Shown here: one piece after another, positions 2,883 through 53,731 of the stretch
How positions within the stretch are numbered: the stretch's first letter is position 1
How the letters are laid out: each line of letters begins with the position of its first letter
Virus record (IMG/VR): IMGVR_UViG_3300032285_005007
Location: 1 to 58,084 of that record
From: a virus
Strand: one strand, 5' to 3'
Length of the DNA: 58,084 nt
Notes under the pieces: model-generated
Databases searched by the model: none
Told to the model about the DNA's origin: nothing
Seen by the model: only the letters and a program-made list of their open reading frames with translations
Translations under genes and position numbers: made by a program

Positions 2883-4652
2883 ATGGCAGAAACAATTGTA
2901 TCACCTGGTGTATTAGCGATAGAGAACGATCAATCATTCACAACTCAACAACCTGTTCAAGCAGGTGCTGCTATCGTAGGCCCAACAGTAAAAGGTAAAG
3001 TAGGTATTCCTACATTGGTAACAACATATAGTGATTACGTTAATAAATTTGGTACATCTTTTTTAAGTGGAAGCCAATATTACACTTATTTTACTTCAAT
3101 TGCAGCATATAACTATTTTGCAGGTGGTGGGAATACTCTATTAGTTACTCGTGTAGTAAGTGGAAGTACTACTACAGCTTGGACCCCAGCATCATCATCA
3201 TTCATTTCATCATCAGCATTTAATGCCGGAGCACCATATAATACTTCTCCATTTGTATTAGAAACAATATCTGAAGGAGTTCTTATGAATAGTGTTGGCC
3301 CTACAGGGTCAAATGGTACTTTATTAAGTGGTTCAAATGAAAACTATAGATGGCAAATTACATCACCAAATACAAGTAGTGGAACTTTTTATTTAGTTAT
3401 CCGTCAAGGAAATGATTCAAACGTTCAACAATCCGTTTTAGAAACTTGGGGTCCACTTTCATTAGATCCATTTGCTTCAAATTATATTGAAAAAGTAATT
3501 GGTAACCAAGTTGAAAATATAGCAAGCGATAATGGTGAATTTTATATCCAACTTTCAGGTAGCTATATTAACAAATCTGCATATGTACGTGTTAGTAGAG
3601 TCAACCAGACAACCCCAGGATATTTAGATAATGTAGGTAATCCAAAACCACAATATACAGGATCTATTCCAATAGCTCAAACAGGTGTATTTGGAGATGG
3701 TAAAGGAAAAAACATCCCAACAGGTGTTGCGGGTGCATATTATAATAATATTACAGATACAAATGTTCAAGGTTTAAGTCCTTATGAATATACTTCATCT
3801 ATTTCGTTATTAGCTAATAAAGATGCATTTAAATATAATTTATTAGTTGCACCCGGACTAATTGCTGACCCAACATATTATCCTTCACATTATACTGTAG
3901 TAAATCAAATTATTAATACTGTACAATCAAGAGGTGATGCAATGACCTTAATTGATTTAGTAGGATATAATTCCAATCTACTCCCAGTAGTAGCAAATGC
4001 TCAATCTTTTGATACTTCATATGCTGCGGCTTATTGGCCTTGGGTTTATACTGTAGATCCTAGTACTGCAAATCAAGTTTGGATTCCTGCAACAACTATG
4101 ATCCCAAGAGTATATGCTCAAAATGATGCTATTGCTTATCCTTGGTATGCACCAGCAGGTATTAATCGAGGAATAATGACAAACGTTATTAAAACCGAGC
4201 GTGTATTAACTCAAGGAAACAGAGATACATTATACCAAGCAAATATTAATCCAATTGCAACCCTACAAACTCAAACTGGAGCTTCAGTAACAGTATTTGG
4301 ACAAAAAACATTGCAGAAAAAAGCAAGTGCCTTAGATCGTGTAAATGTACGTCGTTTATTAATTGAATTAAAAAGTTATATTTCTCAAATTGCTGATACA
4401 TTTGTATTTGAACAAAATACCGAAGCAACAAGAAATAGTTTCTTATCTTTAATTAATCCTTATTTATCATTAGTTCAACAACAACAAGGTTTAACAGCAT
4501 TCCAAGTTATTATCAATGAAACTAATAATCCACCATCAGTAGTAGATCAAAACCAATTAGTAGGTCAAATCTATTTACAACCTACTAGAACAATTGAATT
4601 CATTGTACTAGACTTTAATATATTACCTACAGGTGCAACGTTTCCTGCTTAA
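2883..4652 (+). CDS. 18: Tail sheath protein, gp18-like (copy 1)
   Basis: A 589-residue contractile tail sheath subunit, which polymerises around the tube and contracts to drive it through the host envelope. The N terminus has the sheath signature VSPGV, then PVQAGAAIVGPTVKG, SIAAYNYF.GGG and LLVTRVVSGS. The C-terminal sheath domain has ASALDRVNVRRLLIELK, FEQNTEATR, and VDQNQLVGQIYLQPTRTIEF. The middle ~250 residues are the variable protrusion domain. A second complete paralogue starts 46 bases downstream, and each copy has its own ATATTTATAA motif. Confidence 0.95.
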   Translation: MAETIVSPGVLAIENDQSFTTQQPVQAGAAIVGPTVKGKVGIPTLVTTYSDYVNKFGTSFLSGSQYYTYFTSIAAYNYFAGGGNTLLVTRVVSGSTTTAWTPASSSFISSSAFNAGAPYNTSPFVLETISEGVLMNSVGPTGSNGTLLSGSNENYRWQITSPNTSSGTFYLVIRQGNDSNVQQSVLETWGPLSLDPFASNYIEKVIGNQVENIASDNGEFYIQLSGSYINKSAYVRVSRVNQTTPGYLDNVGNPKPQYTGSIPIAQTGVFGDGKGKNIPTGVAGAYYNNITDTNVQGLSPYEYTSSISLLANKDAFKYNLLVAPGLIADPTYYPSHYTVVNQIINTVQSRGDAMTLIDLVGYNSNLLPVVANAQSFDTSYAAAYWPWVYTVDPSTANQVWIPATTMIPRVYAQNDAIAYPWYAPAGINRGIMTNVIKTERVLTQGNRDTLYQANINPIATLQTQTGASVTVFGQKTLQKKASALDRVNVRRLLIELKSYISQIADTFVFEQNTEATRNSFLSLINPYLSLVQQQQGLTAFQVIINETNNPPSVVDQNQLVGQIYLQPTRTIEFIVLDFNILPTGATFPA

Positions 4653-4698: not shown

Positions 4699-6405
4699 AT
4701 GGCAAATTTTACAGTATCCCCTGGGGTAGCAATTAGTGAGATAGACAACACGTATTTAACAGGAAATCCTGTTCAAGCTGGTGCTGCTATTATAGGCCCA
4801 ACAGTTAAAGGACCTGTTGAGGTACCAACATTGGTAACTTCTTACTCTGATTTCGTAACATTATTTGGAGATAATTTTGTTAGTGGTGGTAACGCTTATT
4901 CATACCTTACTTCAATTGCAGCTTACAACTATTTCAATTACGGTGGAACTTCATTATTAGTAGCACGTGTAGTAACTGGATCATATACTTCAGCAACTAG
5001 TACTTTAGTTACAAACTATTTAAATGCAGCTTCATCTTCATTTACTTTAGAAACCATTTCTAAAGGTATTATAATGAACAGTTCAAGTTCATTGAATGTT
5101 TCTGGAGCATTAGAATCAGGATCAGCAGATAATATTAGATGGGAAATTACCAATTCTAATACTGGATCAGGTACATTTAATGTAGTAATTAGAAGAGGAA
5201 ATGATACTACAAACAATAAAGTTGTTTTAGAGGCATTTAACAATGTTAATCTAGATCCAAACTCTTCAAGATACATTTCTCAAGTAATTGGTGATCAAAC
5301 TTTGAATTATAACTCCACCACTAATCAAATGGAATTAAGTGGAAGTTATGCTAATTTATCTAAATACGTACGAGTTAAATCGGTTAATGCCCCTACACCA
5401 AATTATTTTGATGCTAGTGGTCAACCTGTATCAGCATATACTGCTTCTATCCCACTTAACGGAAGTGGATCATTTTATAATGCAACTGGAGACATTTCAG
5501 GATCCACAGGAGCTACAATGTATGATAACATTGGTACTAATACACAAGGTTTAATAGGTTCATGCTACAACAACATGATCTCATTACTTGGAAATTCAGA
5601 AGCATACCAATTTAATGTATTATTTACTCCTGGATTAACTAACGATAATCACGCAGCACAAATTACAAACATTATTACAAACACTCAACAACGTGGAGAT
5701 AATTTGTATGTAACAGATTTAACAGCTTTCAACGGAACAGTTGCTAGCGCAGTAGCTCAAGCCCAAACAAGAGATACTTCATATGCTGCCACCTACTGGC
5801 CTTGGGTTCGTATTGTAGACCCAGCAACAGGAAAACAAGTATGGGTACCAGCTTCAACTGTAATACCAGGTGTATATGCTTTCAACGATAAAGTAGCTGC
5901 TCCATGGTTTGCACCAGCAGGTATTAATAGAGGTGGATTGTCTACAGTATTACAAGCTCAATACAAATTATCTCAAGGAAATAAAGATACTTTATATTCA
6001 AGCAATATTAACCCAATTGCAACATTACCTAAACAAGGTGTTGTAGTATACGGACAAAAAACATTACAAAAAGCTCAATCGGCTCTTGATCGTGTAAATG
6101 TACGTCGTTTGATGATTGAATTAAAAAATTACATCCGTCAAATTTCCAATACATTAGTATTTGAACAAAATACAAATGCTACAAGAACAGTATTTGTTAC
6201 AAGAGTTACTCCATATTTGGAAGGAATTCAACAAAAACAAGGATTATACGCGTTTAAAGTAGTAATGGATGCTTCAAATAACGGACCAGCAGTAATTGAC
6301 CAAAACCAATTAATCGGTCAAATTTACGTACAACCAACACGCACAGCCGAATTTATATCTCTAGATTTCATCATTACACCAACAGGAACTGAATTCCCAG
6401 GATAA
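4699..6405 (+). CDS. 18: Tail sheath protein, gp18-like (copy 2)
   Basis: A 568-residue paralogue of the preceding gene. The two share the N-terminal frame (VSPGV, PVQAGAAIIGPTVKG, SIAAYNYF, GGTSLLVARVV) and the C-terminal frame (SALDRVNVRRLMIELKNYI, FEQNTNATR, IDQNQLIGQIYVQPTRT). They diverge in the central domain that faces outward on the sheath. Both copies are intact with no stops. The phage may build a mixed sheath or use two sheath types. It is followed by the tail tube gene. Confidence 0.95.
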   Translation: MANFTVSPGVAISEIDNTYLTGNPVQAGAAIIGPTVKGPVEVPTLVTSYSDFVTLFGDNFVSGGNAYSYLTSIAAYNYFNYGGTSLLVARVVTGSYTSATSTLVTNYLNAASSSFTLETISKGIIMNSSSSLNVSGALESGSADNIRWEITNSNTGSGTFNVVIRRGNDTTNNKVVLEAFNNVNLDPNSSRYISQVIGDQTLNYNSTTNQMELSGSYANLSKYVRVKSVNAPTPNYFDASGQPVSAYTASIPLNGSGSFYNATGDISGSTGATMYDNIGTNTQGLIGSCYNNMISLLGNSEAYQFNVLFTPGLTNDNHAAQITNIITNTQQRGDNLYVTDLTAFNGTVASAVAQAQTRDTSYAATYWPWVRIVDPATGKQVWVPASTVIPGVYAFNDKVAAPWFAPAGINRGGLSTVLQAQYKLSQGNKDTLYSSNINPIATLPKQGVVVYGQKTLQKAQSALDRVNVRRLMIELKNYIRQISNTLVFEQNTNATRTVFVTRVTPYLEGIQQKQGLYAFKVVMDASNNGPAVIDQNQLIGQIYVQPTRTAEFISLDFIITPTGTEFPG

Positions 6406-44207: not shown

Positions 44208-47200
44208 ATGAGCACAATAATAACAAGAAATAGCGCAACATCTGGAAGTGTACCTTCTTCACTTATACAAGGTGAATTAGCAATTAACGTAAGAGACGGG
44301 CGTATATTCTATGGCTCTGGTTCTGCAAACATTGTAAAAGAATTTACAGGAAGTGCAAGTGGTGGAGGAGCAGCATTCCCATACACTGGCTCAGCTCAAA
44401 TAACAGGTTCATTAGGTGTAACTGGGTCAATCAATGGATTGCTTGTTGGACGTGGAAATGGTAACATTTCAACAAATGTTTCAATTGGTTCGACTACTGC
44501 ATTTGGTGGATCAAATACTGGAACATTTAATACAGCAATCGGAAATAGCACTCTTACCAGTAATACAACCGGATACTCTAATACAGCAATAGGTAGAAAT
44601 ACTTTACAAACTAATACAACTGGAAGAAATAATACAGCAATAGGCCAAGGTGCTTTACGTTTTAATACAACCGGAAGAGATAACACTGCCATAGGTGTTA
44701 ACTCTTTATATCAAAACACATCAGGATATATTAATACAGCAATAGGTCGATATGCTTTACGTTGTAACACAACAGGTCGTAGTAATGTAGCAATAGGACC
44801 ATATACTTTAACGTGTAATACAACAGGATATAATAATATAGCAATAGGTAAAAAAGCTTTATATTACAATTATTCTGGAAAGCGAAATCTAGCAATAGGA
44901 AATTATGCTTTATCTTGTAATTTAACAGGACAATATAATATAGCATTAGGTCAAAGTGCTTTATCTTTTAATTCATCTGGGGCATGTAATACAGCAATAG
45001 GTTTAGCTGCTTTATTTCTAAATACAACAGGAGTTCATAATACAGCAATAGGATGGAATGCTTTACCCGGTAATGATTCCGGAGCCCATAATATATCAAT
45101 TGGCTTTTTCTCTTCCCGATTCTTTAATGCATCTAACAATATTGCCTTAGGTAGATATGCACTTCAAGGTACATATCAATACGACCCAGGTTCTCAAACA
45201 TCATGTAAATGGACTGGTGGGAATAATATAGCTTTAGGTTGTTATGCTTTAGGTTGTAATACAACAGCTAATAGCAATATTGCAATAGGTAACAATGCTT
45301 TAAAGAATAATACAACAGGAAATTCCAATATTATATTTGGAACAAATGCCGCTCAATTTACTAGTGCATCTGCTAATGTAACATCTTTAAGCAGCTCAAT
45401 CGTAATAGGTACTAATACTAAACCATTAGCAAATAATGATATCAATGAAATTATAATTGGTACAAATGTAGCAGGTTTAGGTTCAAATACAACTGTAATT
45501 GGTAATTCAAGCACTACACGTGCTTGTATTTATGGGCAATTAACAGCAACTTCATTTACCGGATCATTACAAGGTACAGCTTCATTTGCCGTATCAGCTT
45601 CATGGGCTCCTAGTTCAGGTGGAGGAGCAGCATTTCCATTCACAGGCTCAGCTCAGATCACAGGTTCGTTAGGTGTTACTGGTTCAATTAACGGATTATT
45701 TGTTGGACGTGGAAATGGTAACGTTTCATCAAACGTTTCAATTGGCTCAACTATTGCATTTAGTGGATCTGCTACCGGAACAAACAATATAGCAATAGGT
45801 AGTGGTTCTTTAAGTAGAGTTACATCCGGAGGATTTAATACTGCAATAGGTTTCCGTACTTTATATGGTAATACAACCGGAATCAGTAACACAGCAATAG
45901 GCCAATATGCTTTATGTAGTAATATAACAGGAAGACATAACACCGCAGTAGGCTCTTCTGCTTTACGAAGTAATACAGCTGGATTTCACAATACTGCCAT
46001 AGGTCTAAATGCTTTACGTTATAATGTAGGATTCTATAACGCAGCAATTGGTTACAGTGCTTTATGTTCTAATACAACCGGGTATTATAATGTCGCAATA
46101 GGATATAGTACTTTACGCAATAATACAACTGGTCGATATAATGTAGCAATAGGATTATCTGCTTTACGTTCTAATACAACCGCTAATAATAATATTGCAT
46201 TAGGAAGGCGTGCTTTATGTTCTAATACAACAGGAACAGGTAATAATACATTAGGTGCTTGTACTTTAGTTAACAATTCAACGGGAAATCATAATGCTGC
46301 TATAGGTTATAGAGCTTTACAATATAATTCAACCGGAGGTTGTAATACAGCAATTGGATATCGTGCTTTATTTTGTAATACAACAGGACAACATAATACT
46401 GCAATAGGATACCTGGCTTTACGTTCTAATACATCCGGTTACTATAACACAGCAATAGGCCAAAATACTTTACGTTGTAATACAACCGGATTCTATAATA
46501 CTGCAATAAGTTCAAATGCTTTATGTAGTAATACATCCGGAAATAACAATACCGCAATTGGTGTCTATGCTTTACGCAATAATACAACTGGAAATAATAA
46601 TGTTGCAATAGGTTGTCGTGCATTACGTTACAACACAACTGCTAATAACAACACAGCAATCGGTCGATTTGCTTTATGCAATAATTCAACCGGATGTAAT
46701 AACACAGCAATAGGATACCAATCTTTACGAATTAATTCAACAGGAAACCATAACACAGCAATAGGCCAGTTTACTTTACGCAATAATACTACTAGCTGCC
46801 ATAACACCGCAATAGGATACCAGGCTTTACGTAATAACTCAACCGGAGCATATAATACCGCAATAGGTCAAAATGTTTTATATGGTAATACAACGGGTAC
46901 TAATAATACAGCAATAGGTCGATATGCTTTACGTAGTAATACAACCGGAATCAACAGTACAGCAATAGGTCCATATACCTTACGATGTAACACAACTGGA
47001 TTTAGCAATTTAGCATTGGGTCAAGGAGCATCATTTGCTAATTCTGTTGGAAATTGTAATATCGCAGTAGGAAGACGCGCCCTATATTGCAATACCTCAG
47101 GTAGTGTTAATATAGCAATTGGTGATTATTCTTTAGTATTTAATACTAATAGTAATTCTAACATAGCTATAGGAACTAAAGCAATGTATGCAAGTACAAC

Positions 47201-47882
47201 AGGTTGTTTTAATATAGCATTAGGTATTGGATCTTTAGGTTTTAACCAAACCGGAAATAGTAATATTGCAATAGGTACTAGTGCTTTATGTTCTAATACA
47301 TCTGGAAGAACTAATATTGCTATTGGCTATTCAGCTAACTCTCAGTTCGCAGGTAGTAACAATATCGTAATTGGTACTAATATTGGTTTACCAACCTCAG
47401 TAAATAACCAGATTAACATTGGTGGTTTAATATTTGGTTCAGGTTCAAACGCTCTCTCCGGGTCTGCAGCTGGCTTTCAAAGCATTACGGGATCAGCAAA
47501 TGGATCTGTAGGTATCAATCAACCAAATCCTCGATATACTTTAGATGTATCTGGAAGTTTTGGTTTAAATCAAGCAGCATTTATTAACCAAAATACAGCC
47601 TCTTTAGCATCTGGAACTCGAACACTATTTACAAATGCCACAGGATCATTTAACTCAGCATTCTATAACTACGTTTTACTTTCAGGTTCAAATGCAAGAG
47701 CAGGTCAAGTGATGAGTGTATGGAACGGTGGATCAATTCGATTTACTGATGTTACCACAACAGACATTGGTTCTACAACTGCAGTTGTTTTAACCGCGTC
47801 TTTGAGTGGAGCAAACGTTGTTTTATCAAGTACCTTACCAACATCGGGATGGACTTTTGAAACAGTAGTTAATTTAATATAG
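44208..47882 (+). CDS. Giant repeat tail fibre (YadA-head-like 17-residue repeats)
   Basis: A 1224-residue protein. A short N-terminal module (FPYTGSAQITGSLGVTGSIN) is followed by about 15 repeats of 17 residues with consensus NTAIGxxALxxNTTGxx. The same module occurs again near residue 475, followed by about 30 more repeats. The C-terminal ~150 residues are non-repetitive (NQPNPRYTLDVSGSFGLNQA; GWTFETVVNLI). The NxAIG repeats resemble the left-handed beta-roll of YadA-type trimeric adhesin heads, so a long trimeric fibre is likely. Many repeats carry Cys or Arg at the two positions after AL. Confidence 0.8.
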   Translation: MSTIITRNSATSGSVPSSLIQGELAINVRDGRIFYGSGSANIVKEFTGSASGGGAAFPYTGSAQITGSLGVTGSINGLLVGRGNGNISTNVSIGSTTAFGGSNTGTFNTAIGNSTLTSNTTGYSNTAIGRNTLQTNTTGRNNTAIGQGALRFNTTGRDNTAIGVNSLYQNTSGYINTAIGRYALRCNTTGRSNVAIGPYTLTCNTTGYNNIAIGKKALYYNYSGKRNLAIGNYALSCNLTGQYNIALGQSALSFNSSGACNTAIGLAALFLNTTGVHNTAIGWNALPGNDSGAHNISIGFFSSRFFNASNNIALGRYALQGTYQYDPGSQTSCKWTGGNNIALGCYALGCNTTANSNIAIGNNALKNNTTGNSNIIFGTNAAQFTSASANVTSLSSSIVIGTNTKPLANNDINEIIIGTNVAGLGSNTTVIGNSSTTRACIYGQLTATSFTGSLQGTASFAVSASWAPSSGGGAAFPFTGSAQITGSLGVTGSINGLFVGRGNGNVSSNVSIGSTIAFSGSATGTNNIAIGSGSLSRVTSGGFNTAIGFRTLYGNTTGISNTAIGQYALCSNITGRHNTAVGSSALRSNTAGFHNTAIGLNALRYNVGFYNAAIGYSALCSNTTGYYNVAIGYSTLRNNTTGRYNVAIGLSALRSNTTANNNIALGRRALCSNTTGTGNNTLGACTLVNNSTGNHNAAIGYRALQYNSTGGCNTAIGYRALFCNTTGQHNTAIGYLALRSNTSGYYNTAIGQNTLRCNTTGFYNTAISSNALCSNTSGNNNTAIGVYALRNNTTGNNNVAIGCRALRYNTTANNNTAIGRFALCNNSTGCNNTAIGYQSLRINSTGNHNTAIGQFTLRNNTTSCHNTAIGYQALRNNSTGAYNTAIGQNVLYGNTTGTNNTAIGRYALRSNTTGINSTAIGPYTLRCNTTGFSNLALGQGASFANSVGNCNIAVGRRALYCNTSGSVNIAIGDYSLVFNTNSNSNIAIGTKAMYASTTGCFNIALGIGSLGFNQTGNSNIAIGTSALCSNTSGRTNIAIGYSANSQFAGSNNIVIGTNIGLPTSVNNQINIGGLIFGSGSNALSGSAAGFQSITGSANGSVGINQPNPRYTLDVSGSFGLNQAAFINQNTASLASGTRTLFTNATGSFNSAFYNYVLLSGSNARAGQVMSVWNGGSIRFTDVTTTDIGSTTAVVLTASLSGANVVLSSTLPTSGWTFETVVNLI
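44361..44489 (+). repeat. Fibre module copy 1 (GGGAAFP...GSINGL)
   Basis: About 130 bp, repeated with few changes at 45618-45747 (same gene) and 48070-48204 (next fibre gene). It encodes AAFPYTGSAQITGSLGVTGS and the following NGLLVGRGNGN segment. Confidence 0.8.
44529..45360 (+). repeat. Tandem 51-bp coding repeats, block 1
   Basis: About 15 units encoding the 17-residue NTAIG repeat. Units are diverged at DNA level but keep AATACAGCAATAGG and AATACAAC(A/C)GG-type cores. Confidence 0.85.
45618..45747 (+). repeat. Fibre module copy 2 (GGGAAFP...GSINGL)
   Basis: An internal copy within the 1224-residue fibre gene, preceding the second repeat block. It suggests the gene arose by fusion or duplication of two fibre units. 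Confidence 0.8.
45782..47395 (+). repeat. Tandem 51-bp coding repeats, block 2
   Basis: About 30 units of the 17-residue repeat (NTAIGYRALFCNTTGQH type). Single-base CGT/TGT differences alternate Arg and Cys at fixed positions. Confidence 0.85.
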
Positions 47883-47933: not shown

Positions 47934-49856
47934 ATGGCAAACGAATTTAAAATAAAAAATGGTTTCTTCTCTGAAGGAGACTCAAACATAACCGGATCAC
48001 TTAATGTATCCGCAGGTATAACTGGTTCACTTTTAGGAACAGCTTCATATGCACTTTCAAGCCCAGGTGGAGGAGGTGGAGCAGCATTCCCATTCACAGG
48101 TTCTGCTCAAATCACAGGATCACTAGGAGTAACGGGATCAATCAACGGATTACTTATTGGAAAAGGAAACGGTGTAAATGGAGTATCTAATATTTCAATT
48201 GGCTTAACTACTGCATTTTCTTCAAGTTTAAACACTTCTTCCTTTAATAACGTTGCCATTGGATCAGGTTCAATGGTAAACCTAACTAGCGGATCAAATA
48301 ATATAGCAATTGGACAAGATACTTTACGATTAACTATTTCAGGCAACCAAAATATTGCAATTGGCAGAAACGCTTTATGCAGTAATACTATAGGTAGTAG
48401 AAATATTGCAATTGGCCAGAATGCTTTATTACAAACTAATACAACCAGCCCCAATATAGCAATAGGATACCAAACATTACAATCTGGATCAGTCACTGAT
48501 AGTATTGCTATAGGTTATAAAGCAGGATCACGATTAAATGGAAGTTCAAATAATATCCTTATAGGCCGTAAAGCAGGATATGGCGCCACGGGGTCACTTT
48601 CATTTCCATATGCCAATATTGCAATAGGTTATGCTGCAGGGTGTAGTTTGGGAACAAAGTATGCACTTCTTCGTAACTATATTGGATTAGAATATGGTGG
48701 ATACTTCAAATACTATCCAACAACCACAAGATCTAGTTGTAATATATTTATAGGTTATAATTCTGGGAAAAATACATGCGCTCCAACACCAACTGATTTT
48801 CCTAATTTTAATCAAAAAGGATATGCTTCTAAATTTAATACAGCAATAGGAATTAATACTTTGTATTGTAATACTGAAGGGAATAAAAATACAGCAATAG
48901 GATTTAGTACTTTACGCCGCAATACAACTGGGTTTTATAATGTAGCAATAGGATATAGACCATTAAATAATAATACAAATGGGTTCAATAATATAGGAAT
49001 AGGTAAACGAGCTTTATATAATAATACAACAGCAGGTGTTAATACAGCAATTGGAAGTAATGCTTTACTTTCTAATACAACAGGAATGGGTAACGTAGCA
49101 TTTGGGTATAGTTCTTTAATATCTAATACTACAGGATGTCAAAACGTAGCAATAGGTGGTAGAAATGTTTTACTTCAAAATAGTACAGGAAGTAGAAATG
49201 TAGCAATAGGGTATAATTCTTTATTTAGTAGTAGAGTTAGTGGCAATACAGCAATTGGAACTTGTGCTCTGTTTGGCTCAACAACCTCAGTGCGAAATGT
49301 AGTAATAGGACATTGTGCCGGAGTGAATATATATTCATGTGGTGACAATGTAGCAATAGGATATAATTCTTTGATATGTGGTGGTGGTTGTAATAACACT
49401 GTGGTTGGTTCTTGCACTTTAACTTCTGCTTGTATATATACACAAGGTAATGTAGCTGTGGGAACTAATACATTACGATTAGGTAGAGGTATTTTTAATG
49501 TAGCTATAGGTACTAATACAATGAAAAGTTCTACTACTGCAGGGAAAAATGTAGCCATAGGATATGGTGCGTTATGTGCTAACACAACTGGGGCATATAA
49601 TGTTATAGTTGGAACATACACTTCTCAAACCAACACAACAGGAGGAGGTAATACAGCTATCGGTTTTAAAGCTACTTCTGCCAATTTTTGCAACTCAGTA
49701 ATCCTAGGAAGATGTGCTGTTGCAACGGCAAATAATCAATTTGTAGTAGGTGCTTCTTCTTATAATGCTGGAGCCGTTACCACAGAAACTTGTTCTGCAA
49801 CTAAAACATGGTCTGTAGTAATTAATGGAGTTGCACAAAAAATCCTACTCGCTTAA
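47934..49856 (+). CDS. Repeat tail fibre paralogue (640 aa)
   Basis: A 640-residue protein. The start KNGFFSEGDSNITGSLNVSA and SLLGTASYALSSPGGGGGA is a typical fibre N terminus. The shared FPFTGSAQITGSLGVTGSIN module follows, then NxAIG repeats interrupted by irregular segments (about 48531-48830). The non-repeat C terminus (NQFVVGASSYNAGAVTTETC, WSVVINGVAQKILLA) differs from that of the 1224-residue fibre. Different tips on a related shaft suggest alternative receptor-binding fibres, or partners in one fibre. Confidence 0.8.
   Translation: MANEFKIKNGFFSEGDSNITGSLNVSAGITGSLLGTASYALSSPGGGGGAAFPFTGSAQITGSLGVTGSINGLLIGKGNGVNGVSNISIGLTTAFSSSLNTSSFNNVAIGSGSMVNLTSGSNNIAIGQDTLRLTISGNQNIAIGRNALCSNTIGSRNIAIGQNALLQTNTTSPNIAIGYQTLQSGSVTDSIAIGYKAGSRLNGSSNNILIGRKAGYGATGSLSFPYANIAIGYAAGCSLGTKYALLRNYIGLEYGGYFKYYPTTTRSSCNIFIGYNSGKNTCAPTPTDFPNFNQKGYASKFNTAIGINTLYCNTEGNKNTAIGFSTLRRNTTGFYNVAIGYRPLNNNTNGFNNIGIGKRALYNNTTAGVNTAIGSNALLSNTTGMGNVAFGYSSLISNTTGCQNVAIGGRNVLLQNSTGSRNVAIGYNSLFSSRVSGNTAIGTCALFGSTTSVRNVVIGHCAGVNIYSCGDNVAIGYNSLICGGGCNNTVVGSCTLTSACIYTQGNVAVGTNTLRLGRGIFNVAIGTNTMKSSTTAGKNVAIGYGALCANTTGAYNVIVGTYTSQTNTTGGGNTAIGFKATSANFCNSVILGRCAVATANNQFVVGASSYNAGAVTTETCSATKTWSVVINGVAQKILLA
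48070..48204 (+). repeat. Fibre module copy 3 (GGGAAFP...GSINGL)
   Basis: The third copy of the ~130-bp module, in the 640-residue fibre gene. It is a possible site for recombination with the copies at 44361 and 45618. Confidence 0.8.
48250..49700 (+). repeat. Coding NTAIG-type repeats, block 3
   Basis: Roughly 51-bp units encoding NxAIG repeats, less regular than blocks 1 and 2, with inserted longer loops near 48531-48830. Confidence 0.75.
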
Positions 49857-49914: not shown

Positions 49915-50736
49915 ATGGTACAAAAAGTTTTTTACAACCCATCCATGCCTAGAGCAGGATCAACCTTGATTCAAAACATTTTAATGCAAAATCCCGATAT
50001 CTATTCAACCCCTACTTCAGGTGTGATTGAATTTTTATTGAACGCAAGATCAGTGTATACTGCAGGTGAAGCATTTAAAGCGCAAGATCAAGATGAAATG
50101 AAAGCAGGATTCAAAAATTTCTGCAAAACAGGACTATATGGTTTTTTTGATGGAATTACAGATCGTCCTTATGTAATGGAAAAAAGTAGAGGATGGTTAG
50201 GCCACTTCAACTTTATCGAGTTTTTCACTGATGAAAAACCTAAAATGATTGTTATGGTTCGTGATTTACGTGCTATATTTGCTTCAATGGAGAAAAATTT
50301 CCGTAAACACCCAGACAAAGACCCAATGATTATCAATGGTGTTGAATTGAAAAATATGACTACCGCAGCACGCGTAGACCATTTCTCAGTTGCCCCTCCA
50401 ATCGGACCTTCAGTAGAATGGTTATCTGAGGCAATTCACCAAGGAATAGACAAAGATATTTTGTTTATCCGATTCGAAGATTTGACAACAGATCCTGAAA
50501 CGGAATTGAAAAAAATCTATGAATATTTAGAATTGCCATATTTTCAACACGACTTTAATAATGTTGAACAATTAACACACGAAAATGATGTTATCCATGG
50601 TATTTTTGGAGACCACAAAATCCAACCCCAAGTAAAACCAGTAAAAGATAATTTTGTTGAAATTCTTGGAAAAGAACAATGTGACCGCTTACGCGAACAT
50701 TACGATTGGTATTTTAGAGCTTTTAACTATATTTAA
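49915..50736 (+). CDS. PAPS-dependent sulfotransferase
   Basis: A 273-residue soluble enzyme. The 5'-phosphosulfate loop is NPSMPRAGSTLIQNIL (~8-23). The 3'-phosphate motif is MIVMVRDLRAIFASM (~111-125), with R116 and S124 as expected phosphate contacts. WLSEAI and ILFIRFEDLTTDPETELKKI are also typical. It transfers sulfate from PAPS to a hydroxyl or amine; the acceptor is unknown. It directly follows the fibre genes and lies just upstream of an APS kinase gene, so the phage appears to boost its own PAPS supply. Target candidates are fibre sugars, LPS or capsule, or a small molecule. Confidence 0.8.
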   Translation: MVQKVFYNPSMPRAGSTLIQNILMQNPDIYSTPTSGVIEFLLNARSVYTAGEAFKAQDQDEMKAGFKNFCKTGLYGFFDGITDRPYVMEKSRGWLGHFNFIEFFTDEKPKMIVMVRDLRAIFASMEKNFRKHPDKDPMIINGVELKNMTTAARVDHFSVAPPIGPSVEWLSEAIHQGIDKDILFIRFEDLTTDPETELKKIYEYLELPYFQHDFNNVEQLTHENDVIHGIFGDHKIQPQVKPVKDNFVEILGKEQCDRLREHYDWYFRAFNYI

Positions 50737-50745
50737 TATTTATAA
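50736..50745 (+). promoter_or_regulatory. Late-type upstream motif ATATTTATAA
   Basis: An exact motif copy overlapping the sulfotransferase stop, followed by ACAAAAC, 10 bases before the ATG at 50756. Confidence 0.55.
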
Positions 50746-50755
50746 ACAAAACAAA

Positions 50756-50998
50756 ATGGAAGAAACACAAACCCCAGAACAAGTACAACAACACATTAAT
50801 GCAGCATTTGATTCAGTTAATTTGATCAATGACGAAATCACTAAAGAAGTAACTGACAACCGTAAAGACACTGTAAAACGCAATGTTCAACATCTTGAAT
50901 TGATGATTGCAAAAGATTGGTTTGCAGCAGGATGTACAGAACAACAAGTAACTGATATCAATGCATGTATTGCTGCTGGAAACACATACACAGCATAA
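50756..50998 (+). CDS. Small hypothetical protein (80 aa)
   Basis: An 80-residue acidic helical protein (MEETQTPEQVQQHINAAFDS; DTVKRNVQHLELMIAKDWFA). The ATG just after the late-type motif is chosen; the frame is open further upstream only inside the sulfotransferase gene. I recall similar short 'NVxHLELMLAKxW' proteins in other phages, role unknown. Confidence 0.5.
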   Translation: MEETQTPEQVQQHINAAFDSVNLINDEITKEVTDNRKDTVKRNVQHLELMIAKDWFAAGCTEQQVTDINACIAAGNTYTA

Positions 50999-51015
50999 AA
51001 CCAACTAAAAAAGTT

Positions 51016-51486
51016 ATGATATATTGGTTTACAGGGCAACCTGGACACGGTAAAACGGTTTTGGCATCTGCTTTAAAGCAAGAACTAGACAATACATTTC
51101 ATATTGACGGAGATGACCTGCGCGCTATATTCGATAATAAAGACTATAGCGAGGCAGGCCGCCGTAAAAATATTGAATTGGCTCAACAACTAGCTCATTT
51201 TTTACACAACAAAGAATGTAATGTAGTTGTATCACTAGTTTCCCCTTATCAAGATCAACGTGAGGAATTTAAAAACAAACTTGGAGATTCTATAAAAGAG
51301 TTTTATATTCACACTACCGAAATGCGAGGTAGAGAAAATTTCCATGTAGAAAACTATCAACAACCTACAGAAAATTATCTTGATGTAGATACTACAGATA
51401 TTTCGGTTGAAGAATGTTTAAATAAAATAAAAAGTTATGCAAAATTGGAGCAAAAAATTACACGTACAGTCATCACTGGAATCTAA
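51016..51486 (+). CDS. cysC: Adenylylsulfate (APS) kinase
   Basis: A 156-residue kinase of near-minimal APS kinase length. Walker A is WFTGQPGHGKTVLAS (loop 7-14), then HIDGDDLRAIFDNKDYSEAG (compare DGDN.R.GL..DLGFS), RRKNIELA, and VVSLVSPYQDQREEF (compare ISPYR..R). It phosphorylates APS to PAPS, the sulfate donor of the sulfotransferase at 49915. No ATP sulfurylase is visible, so APS must come from the host. AAAAAAGTT stands before the ATG. It overlaps the next gene by 50 bases. Confidence 0.85.
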   Translation: MIYWFTGQPGHGKTVLASALKQELDNTFHIDGDDLRAIFDNKDYSEAGRRKNIELAQQLAHFLHNKECNVVVSLVSPYQDQREEFKNKLGDSIKEFYIHTTEMRGRENFHVENYQQPTENYLDVDTTDISVEECLNKIKSYAKLEQKITRTVITGI

Positions 51487-51841
51487 ACCGAATCAATATG
51501 CAATGTTTATTGGTCGTTGGCAACCACTACATGATGGGCATAAAGCATTATTTCAACAAGCTTTAGATGAAGGCAAAAATGTTTGGATTGCAATTAGGGA
51601 TGTTGAAACAACAGAATCAAACCCCTTTGATGCTCAAGAAGTACTTGAAAACATTGGAAACGAATACAAAGAACTTTGTGGACAAGGTCGAGTTAAAATT
51701 AGTGTCATCCCTGACATATGTTCGGTTGAGTTTGGTAGAGGAGTTGGTTATGATATTATTGAACATATACCTCCCACACCAATAGCTGAAATCTCAGCAA
51801 CAAAAGTTAGAGAACAAATGCGTAAAGAAGGTAAGTTATGA
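51437..51841 (+). CDS. Cytidylyltransferase-like nucleotidyltransferase
   Basis: A 134-residue protein with the HxGH nucleotidyltransferase core: AMFIGRWQPLHDGHKALF (H32, H35) and a late ISATKVREQM, matching the 'ISxTxxR' motif. NPFDAQEVLENIG and VSVIPDI-like KISVIPDICSVEFGRGVGYD recall NMN adenylyltransferases and glycerol-phosphate cytidylyltransferases. The substrate is unknown; activating a sugar or alcohol phosphate would fit the glycosyltransferase downstream. The start with AAAAAGTT is preferred over the ATG at 51503. It overlaps the next gene by ATGA. Confidence 0.75.
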   Translation: MQNWSKKLHVQSSLESKPNQYAMFIGRWQPLHDGHKALFQQALDEGKNVWIAIRDVETTESNPFDAQEVLENIGNEYKELCGQGRVKISVIPDICSVEFGRGVGYDIIEHIPPTPIAEISATKVREQMRKEGKL

Positions 51842-52284
51842 AAGACAAATCACATCAATTCCAAATCCGATTCAACGTTCATAGTAAAAACGAAGACGAG
51901 CGTTGGAGATTAATTACAGATGGACATGAGTTATTAGTTTCTAATATCATCATCAATGGACATACCTATACTACAATGGATTGGATGCCGGATCTCAATG
52001 AACACAAATGGCATATTAGTTGTGAAGGGTATGTTACAGTAAAAAATAATATAGCGTATATTACAACAGTAAAAGAAGAATCTGTAGTAGCGCGACATAT
52101 TTTGAAAACATTTTCATACCGTATTTTAGGTACGTTAACAACAGTTCTTGTTGCCTATTCATTAGGTGCTTCAGTTCAATTATCTTCCCTACTTGGAGTA
52201 GGTGAATTACTTATAAAACCCGTTATCTACTTTTTCCACGAACGAGTATGGTACAAATATCTTAGAATAGGAAACAAAAAATAA
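51838..52284 (+). CDS. DUF2061-type membrane protein
   Basis: A 148-residue protein. Residues 1-85 are a soluble strand-rich domain (ERWRLITDGHELLVSNIIIN, YTTMDWMPD, KWHISCEGYVTVKNNIAYIT). Residues ~88-145 are the DUF2061 pattern with two membrane segments: HILKTFSYRILGTLTTVLVA and LLGVGELLIKPVIYFFHERV with the conserved HERVWYK. I recall DUF2061 proteins next to or fused with APS kinases in Bacteroidota, which fits this location. Function unknown. Confidence 0.75.
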   Translation: MKDKSHQFQIRFNVHSKNEDERWRLITDGHELLVSNIIINGHTYTTMDWMPDLNEHKWHISCEGYVTVKNNIAYITTVKEESVVARHILKTFSYRILGTLTTVLVAYSLGASVQLSSLLGVGELLIKPVIYFFHERVWYKYLRIGNKK

Positions 52285-52285
52285 T

Positions 52286-53164
52286 ATGGAAGAAAAATAT
52301 ATAGTTTGGCACATCGAAGGAGGATTAGGTAAAAATGTTGCTGCTACCTCTTTATTAACCTCTTTACAAGAGACATACCCTGATAGAAAAACCATTGTGG
52401 TCGCTTCATACCCAGAAATATTCTTAAACCACCCAGATGCTCACCGAGTTTATAAAATGGGTTCTACACAATATTTCTATGACGATTATATCAAAGATAA
52501 AGATACATTAATCTTTAGACACGAACCGTATTTTGAGACACAACATATCTTGAAAAACAAACACTTGATTGCAAATTGGTGTAAATTGCTAGATGTTAAA
52601 TATACGTTCCAAACACCATTTTTGAATTTTAACTTTGTACAACAAAGAAATTCTATAAAATGGCAACGAGAGAAACCTATTCTTTTAATGCAAACCAATG
52701 GAGGACCTTTAAATAGCAATTTAGAATATTCTTGGACACGAGATATTCCATATATGATATCCAAACAAATTGCAGACAAATATAGAGAAACTCACCATAT
52801 TATTCAAATATGTAAACCATCTTCAATGAAAATAGAAGGTGCTGAAATAATTGATCAACCACTACAGGCAATGGATTTATTTGCATTATTAGCTGTAAGT
52901 GATAAACGCGTATTAATTGATTCATGTTTACAACATGCCGCAACTGCATTAAATCTCAAATCAAATGTATTTTGGATCGGAACATCAGCTAAAAACTTTG
53001 GATATTCAATGCATAAAAACATTGAAGCAAACCCACCATCAAATGCTGTTAAATTAGTAGATTCTTATTTATTTGATTATTCATTCGAAGGCATCACTCA
53101 TGAATGTCCATACTTCAGTATAGAGGAAATGTTTGACGTTGCCAAAATTATTGAAGAAATTTAA
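52286..53164 (+). CDS. Glycosyltransferase family 9-like protein (heptosyltransferase-type)
   Basis: A 292-residue protein. The start WHIEGGLGKNVAATSLLTSL, followed by YPDRKTIVVASYPEIFLNHP, is the GT9 nucleotide-sugar fold pattern ('GGLGDxxxxxP.l..L....P...I.vv'). The C-terminal half has ADKYRETHHIIQICKPSS and VSDKRVLIDSCLQHAATALN followed by VFWIGTSAKNFGY, like the second GT-B domain ('.DS...H.A.A......v.lfG.T'). GT9 enzymes add heptose to LPS. Here it may glycosylate a virion or surface component. It sits in the sulfation block. Confidence 0.75.
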   Translation: MEEKYIVWHIEGGLGKNVAATSLLTSLQETYPDRKTIVVASYPEIFLNHPDAHRVYKMGSTQYFYDDYIKDKDTLIFRHEPYFETQHILKNKHLIANWCKLLDVKYTFQTPFLNFNFVQQRNSIKWQREKPILLMQTNGGPLNSNLEYSWTRDIPYMISKQIADKYRETHHIIQICKPSSMKIEGAEIIDQPLQAMDLFALLAVSDKRVLIDSCLQHAATALNLKSNVFWIGTSAKNFGYSMHKNIEANPPSNAVKLVDSYLFDYSFEGITHECPYFSIEEMFDVAKIIEEI

Positions 53165-53166
53165 TA

Positions 53167-53703
53167 ATGGAACGTATTCAATTTCAAGGCACCTGGGGTT
53201 ATGAAAATTTTATAACAGATGATGAGCATTCTCAATTAATGAGTTGGATATATGAAAATGAAAAAAATTTTACATTACCTTCTGATAAAAATATTTCTAA
53301 ATTATTTGCTTCTCATCGTAAACGTTATATATTTAAAACCCATAAGGAACATCCATATCCCCTTATACAAAATATTAAACAAAGAGTAATTGATGTTGAA
53401 TTTATAGAAGAATGGATCCCCGAACCCTTTTGGCTTGATTATATAGGATATATTTCAGAAGGTGGATCCATCCAATTCCATAAAGATGTAAATACTCCAG
53501 GTTATACTCATGTACGATATAATGTAATATTATCTTTTCCTGAAGAAGGTGGAGACTCTGTATATGGTAATTCAGTTAATTCATTTAAAGAAAAAACAGT
53601 ATGGAGATGTGAAGCTGGAAAAATACCACATGGAAGTATAACTGTAAAAGGTAAACGTCCTAGAATTACATTATCTTTAGGTTTTTTAATTAAAAATAAA
53701 TAA
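53167..53703 (+). CDS. 2-oxoglutarate / Fe(II)-dependent oxygenase
   Basis: A 178-residue protein with a prolyl-hydroxylase-type jelly roll. Iron ligands are H105 and D107 (IQFHKDVN) and H155 (AGKIPHGSIT); R164 or R166 (KRPRITLSLGF) can bind 2-oxoglutarate. RYNVILSFPEEGGDSVYG gives the connecting strands. It would hydroxylate a protein, sugar or nucleotide. It starts 2 bases after the glycosyltransferase gene and ends the unit at a terminator, so it may prepare a hydroxyl acceptor for glycosylation or sulfation. This link is inference. Confidence 0.8.
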   Translation: MERIQFQGTWGYENFITDDEHSQLMSWIYENEKNFTLPSDKNISKLFASHRKRYIFKTHKEHPYPLIQNIKQRVIDVEFIEEWIPEPFWLDYIGYISEGGSIQFHKDVNTPGYTHVRYNVILSFPEEGGDSVYGNSVNSFKEKTVWRCEAGKIPHGSITVKGKRPRITLSLGFLIKNK

Positions 53704-53710
53704 AAAAATT

Positions 53711-53731
53711 AGGCCCCGTTAAGGGGCTTTT
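53711..53731 (+). terminator. Rho-independent terminator after the oxygenase gene
   Basis: Stem GCCCC / GGGGC with GTTAA loop, followed by TTTT. An A-rich stretch precedes it. It closes the sulfation/glycosylation unit. Confidence 0.8.

Follow-up and report, generated by a model that had tools for sequence, protein, structure and literature searches.

PAPSS-type bifunctional synthases make 3'-phosphoadenosine-5'-phosphosulfate (PAPS) and carry their adenosine-5'-phosphosulfate (APS) kinase first. Among phages, annotated sulfotransferases are found in cyanophages. We analysed a locus in the virus record IMGVR_UViG_3300032285_005007 of IMG/VR, whose whole stretch of 58,084 nucleotides is called the window here. 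A sequence-only reading had placed a six-gene island for sulfation and glycosylation beside its tail-fibre genes. All six genes were indeed present on the + strand, in the order described and at about the same coordinates, and we added a seventh, h82, which had been overlooked between the sulfotransferase (ST) and the kinase. The ST is 26-28% identical to its annotated cyanophage relatives. Like a PAPSS-type synthase, the island pairs a kinase of the APS-kinase family with an HxGH nucleotidyltransferase (NT), but as two small, unfused proteins (156 and 112-134 amino acids), and the NT falls outside the ATP-sulfurylase (Sat) family PF01747 (13.6 bits, E 0.046, cut-off 24.3). The reading with most support is that the island is a conserved phage module for sulfation that supplies its own PAPS, and we consider it likely that the module makes PAPS for sulfation. 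The genes concerned are the following.

44208..47882, + strand: NTAIG-repeat fibre-like protein of 1224 amino acids, possible substrate; 47 loose copies of the repeat motif, no Pfam family at E ≤ 1
47934..49856, + strand: second NTAIG-repeat fibre-like protein, 640 amino acids, possible substrate; phrog_6002 and phrog_4636 (virion structural / tail spike), 22 motif copies
49915..50736, + strand: PAPS-type ST; PF13469, PF00685, PRxGSTL and RD...SMEK motifs
50756..50998, + strand: h82, a conserved open reading frame of 80 amino acids; found in 37 of the 55 ST-query loci flanked by 3 kb or more on both sides
51016..51486, + strand: APS-kinase-like kinase of 156 amino acids, starting MIYWFTG; PF01583, conserved P-loop, DGDxxR, RxxN and SPY
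51437..51841, + strand: HxGH NT of 112-134 amino acids, candidate minimal ATP sulfurylase; PF01467, invariant motifs, linkage to apr genes in SAR11
51838..52284, + strand: DUF2061 membrane domain with an N-terminal domain; PF09834, bacterial DUF2061 genes adjoin PAPS_reduct genes
52286..53164, + strand: GT9-fold (heptosyltransferase-like) glycosyltransferase (GT); structure model and Foldseek

From the kinase onward the genes are tightly packed: kinase and NT overlap, NT and DUF2061 share ATGA, and gaps of 1 and 2 nucleotides follow. The NT may start at 51437 or 51503, and its conserved portion begins at the Met at 51503.

Conservation was assessed by three viral-contig scans with the kinase, the NT and the ST as queries. 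The best 80 loci were kept from each scan, the sets overlap in contigs, and gene content was counted only in loci that extended 3 kb or more to both sides (57 kinase-, 44 NT- and 55 ST-query loci of 80 each). The core of kinase, NT and DUF2061 protein was complete in 57/57 kinase-query loci; all 44 NT-query loci had the kinase and 34 the DUF2061 protein. GT was present in 44 of the 55 ST-query loci, and kinase together with NT in 34. Around the core the gene order is shuffled (ST-core-GT, ST-GT-core, GT-ST-core), which argues against common descent of a single arrangement as the sole cause of the linkage. The island is confirmed as more than a chance assembly, with its gene content recurring over many contigs in changing order. 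This conserved gene set supports the earlier proposal of sulfation and glycosylation beside the fibres, except that the NT is probably not a sugar activator; we reread it as a probable sulfate adenylyltransferase, and kinase and NT would therefore make up a whole PAPS synthase. In the phage database INPHARED, the kinase had four weak matches and no close relative, the DUF2061 protein none, and the GT three relatives.

In the pathway that we propose, the NT would join ATP and sulfate into APS (ATP sulfurylase activity) and the APS-kinase-like kinase would add the 3'-phosphate to give PAPS, with the DUF2061 protein assisting sulfate activation at the membrane, perhaps in sulfate entry or in anchoring the enzymes. 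The ST, which resembles protein-tyrosine sulfotransferases (TPST), would spend the PAPS, and the GT9-fold enzyme would add a sugar. The shared target would most likely be the neighbouring NTAIG-repeat fibre, yielding virions with sulfated and glycosylated fibres. Taken as a whole, from NT through kinase to ST, GT and fibre target, such a compact sulfation and glycosylation module seems fairly probable. If so, the whole path from sulfate to a sulfated product would be encoded by phages, a virion modification for which we found no description in open-access papers. Among the matches listed in these searches, which took in few subscription papers and no bioRxiv preprints, no paper dealt with a PAPS-making module in a phage or with this NT as a sulfurylase.

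The kinase scored 53.7 bits against the APS-kinase family PF01583 (gathering score 21.1). Its P-loop, DGDxxR, RxxN and SPY motifs, whose residues have known roles in APS kinase, are kept in the viral sequences as in two canonical APS kinases. The ST reached the gathering score in Pfam (PF13469, 54.1 bits; PF00685, 48.9), and its profile matched TPST1 in the PDB at E 3.6e-10. Its nearest solved relatives are thus protein-tyrosine sulfotransferases, with which it shares the PAPS loops by profile. The PRxGSTL and RD...SMEK motifs are invariant or nearly so across 14 aligned relatives. The DUF2061 protein scored 57.0 bits with PF09834, and its N-terminal domain is a separate open reading frame in some contigs. 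We found DUF2061 in 15 of 148 genomes of Bacteroidota, the phylum of a Flavobacteriales genome, and PAPS_reduct-family proteins (CysH/CysD type; 18 proteins) are neighbours in 10 of the 15 distinct bacterial loci. Furthermore, one open reading frame (L347:964-1683, - strand) begins DUF2061-like and also matches the APS-kinase-like query, a possible fusion. These bacterial neighbours and the L347 frame link DUF2061 to sulfate activation independently of phages.

The NT is the most interesting part of the module, since its genomic behaviour, which resembles that of an ATP sulfurylase, is new and unexpected. It belongs to PF01467 (28.3 bits), a member of the superfamily that we take to include ATP sulfurylase, and has invariant GRW, HxGH, PDI.S, GR..GY and IS.T..R motifs. 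Its cellular relatives occur in two settings, either beside or fused with the kinase or as stand-alone genes in Pelagibacterales (SAR11). The stand-alone and viral NTs have HxGH, GR.VGY and IS.T..R in common. In most of the Pelagibacterales loci (within L104-L161), the stand-alone NT lines up with aprB, with aprA and with the gene of a QmoC-like membrane protein; NCBIfam names the neighbours AprA (995 bits) and AprB (188 bits). Among 147 genomes of Pelagibacteraceae, described as being without Sat, the NT was matched in 86 at E ≤ 0.001, of which the 79 below E 1e-15 were counted, and 61 of these 79 had a frame length under 150 and were called stand-alone (one, in G035, is a fragment). AprA exceeded its cut-off in 56/61 genomes with a stand-alone NT versus 10/86 others, a table that overstates independence because SAR11 genomes share ancestry, which has to be set against our interpretation. 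In the 56 genomes with both genes, they lie within 7 kb of each other in 30, farther apart on one contig in 9, and on different contigs in 17. Canonical Sat was found in 5 of the 147 genomes; 20 NT-bearing genomes, which are possibly incomplete, included four with Sat and none with CysD over its cut-off. The phylum Marinimicrobia (NT in 4/120 genomes, Sat in 41/120, both in 0) gave numbers too small to count as evidence.

In a published study, P. ubique is reported to have AprBA, and sat and cysDNCHIJ are reported absent, while a table in the same paper shows several strains with a cysC ortholog and with cysQ (PMC5069961). A 2025 study describes the incomplete pathway as core to Pelagibacteraceae (PMC12636525). 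The missing partner of AprBA in SAR11 is an enzyme interconverting APS and sulfate, and the NT is a candidate for this step. On its genomic context, we lean slightly towards the NT acting as an ATP sulfurylase. If this is correct, the same small enzyme closes a pathway gap in Pelagibacteraceae, which are among the most abundant bacteria of the ocean. Tentatively, at a little under even chances, the NT could even represent a third kind of ATP sulfurylase, an HxGH enzyme of about 112 residues with no family relationship to Sat or CysDN. In SAR11, it would provide the APS-sulfate step that is missing from sulfite oxidation; in phages, it would combine with a short APS kinase and DUF2061 into a tiny cassette that makes PAPS for sulfating their fibres.

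Several observations weigh against a module that makes its own PAPS. Among proteins of known structure, the profile of the NT matches NMN (nicotinamide mononucleotide) adenylyltransferases rather than ATP sulfurylases; all 11 matches better than E 1e-5 are of this kind, mostly across the first half of the NT. The structure model of the NT is weak (predicted local distance difference test, pLDDT, 72.7), with a phosphopantetheine adenylyltransferase as best Foldseek match at E 1.8e-3, and it does not discriminate between the folds of this enzyme, NMN adenylyltransferase and ATP sulfurylase. At four otherwise conserved positions, the apr-linked NTs of SAR11 differ from the viral ones. The kinase remains below the cut-off of the APS-kinase equivalog TIGR00455 (60.4 bits versus 138.7), and its lid is partly missing. 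In the stretches fetched, no recognised ST accompanies the core in many viral loci, and in 36 ST-less viral loci a DNA-methyltransferase-like gene, named by eye, adjoins kinase and NT. Two Stenotrophomonas phages, Bhz60 and DLP6, carry kinase-NT fusions among other genes that we judged divergent, with Q at the position of N52, as in 17% of cellular kinases. These fused homologues may differ in function.

The profile matches of the NT bring up a different explanation, in which kinase and NT are a NadR-like cofactor salvage pair (nucleoside kinase and NMN adenylyltransferase) whose product is NAD+ or a similar nucleotide, and the host supplies PAPS to the ST. The best matches are indeed NadM-type enzymes, with which the NT shares the HxGH motif, a GRxQP start and an ISxT..R end, and the fused homologue of Bhz60 adjoins a gene annotated with a NADAR domain. 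However, the NT is shorter than NadM and scored 28.3 against the cut-off of 181.2 for the NadM equivalog TIGR01527. Only its N-terminal half aligns to NadM, and the PDI.S/GRGVGY half, conserved in its own right, lies mostly outside the alignment. The kinase belongs with the APS kinases, unlike that of NadR, and the linkage to aprBA, to sulfotransferases and, via DUF2061, to PAPS_reduct genes also points elsewhere. We thus regard a salvage pair as unlikely, and an NT acting on a sugar phosphate or NMN is retained as a rival only.

The shortened lid and the score of the kinase below the equivalog cut-off would also allow another substrate, so that the pair might make a different 3'-phosphorylated nucleotide donor for the presumed sulfotransferase. 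An APS-kinase homologue, Cj1415, makes such a donor for CDP-phosphoramidate in Campylobacter. Against such a donor, the ST keeps its TPST-like PAPS motifs and the NT is found with APS reductase, whose substrate is APS, making this explanation quite improbable.

Among the viral loci without an ST, one representative (L074) carries a Sulfotransfer_2 gene, as do 3 of the 127 representatives overall that were obtained out of 183. Two further neighbours in ST-less loci looked ST-like by eye and were not counted because they had no Pfam match and no notable sequence match in the PDB. The methyltransferase setting is seen in L203, L207, L215 and L243 among other ST-less loci, and, by annotation, in Stenotrophomonas phage Bhz60 (L353).

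For the target of a PAPS-making module, the linkage to fibres is informative. We called a fibre where an open reading frame had at least five NTAIG-type repeats and left out loci under 8 kb. A fibre was found in 45/54 ST-query loci, and kinase-query loci had one in 21/33 cases with ST versus 0/25 without. After clustering at 80% identity, 14 of 17 ST clusters and none of 10 clusters without ST had the fibre. Because the fibre tracks the presence of ST across loci, it follows the ST and not the core. NT-query loci contribute a contrary count (1/21 with ST, 0/19 without); their 4-kb flanks probably stop short of the fibre. That the fibre is the target of modification is possible at somewhat less than an even chance. 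Provided that PAPS is made, a variant with a different target is a smaller though serious possibility, namely that the host surface (lipopolysaccharide or capsule) is modified, for example as a block to superinfection, and that the fibres are adjacent only through a shared host-interaction region. Cellular kinase and NT genes lie among polysaccharide genes (UDP-sugar dehydrogenases, aminotransferases, GT2, Wzy), and the fold of the GT is that of lipopolysaccharide heptosyltransferases. The distribution of fibres between ST loci and core loci without ST speaks for the fibre and against this variant. The further suggestion that sulfation mimics host glycans found no support.

In the 114 of 156 neighbour proteins obtained around cellular kinase and NT genes, Sulfotransfer_5 was the commonest Pfam family (nine proteins, mostly one orthologous group by position). 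Most cellular fusions of the two have the kinase first, matching the order in PAPSS; L105 is an exception.

The GT had no family match in Pfam or NCBIfam, including GT9, and its sequence matched none of the solved structures. Its model (pLDDT 88.2) was matched best by 1psw and 3tov in Foldseek, followed by WaaC and TibC. These fold matches, to WaaF (E 2.0e-10), to a GT9 enzyme of Veillonella, and to WaaC and TibC (about 1e-7 to 1e-5), place the GT in the GT9/GT-B fold shared with heptosyltransferases, bearing out its earlier description as GT9-like.

Two features end the island.

53167..53703, + strand: 2-oxoglutarate (2OG)-Fe(II) oxygenase-like protein, accessory; H105, D107, H155 and R166 invariant, phrog_13746 (function unknown)
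53713..53727, + strand: GC-rich hairpin, possible terminator; counted by the terminator scan on the - strand only

HxD...H...R is the motif of 2OG-Fe(II) oxygenases, and its residues were invariant in 6/6 aligned sequences of the oxygenase-like protein, which had no Pfam family match. The viral-contig scan returned five relatives, three of which (42-44% identical) had none of the other module genes in the fetched stretch. The oxygenase is therefore rare and co-occurs with the module in close relatives only, so that the expected conservation of the whole gene set applies to the core, ST and GT and not to this gene. The terminator proposed after the island corresponds to a GC hairpin that does exist, although the scan recognised it as a terminator on the - strand alone, and the number of terminator-like sites in the region is that expected by chance (8, versus 7.9 ± 3.0 in shuffles).

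No tRNA genes were found in the window (1-58084). The replicative helicase is 55% identical to that of Flavobacterium phage immuto (160 kb), which makes a flavobacterial host plausible. Two tandem tail-sheath genes, at 2883-4652 and 4699-6405 of the window, both match phrog_23.

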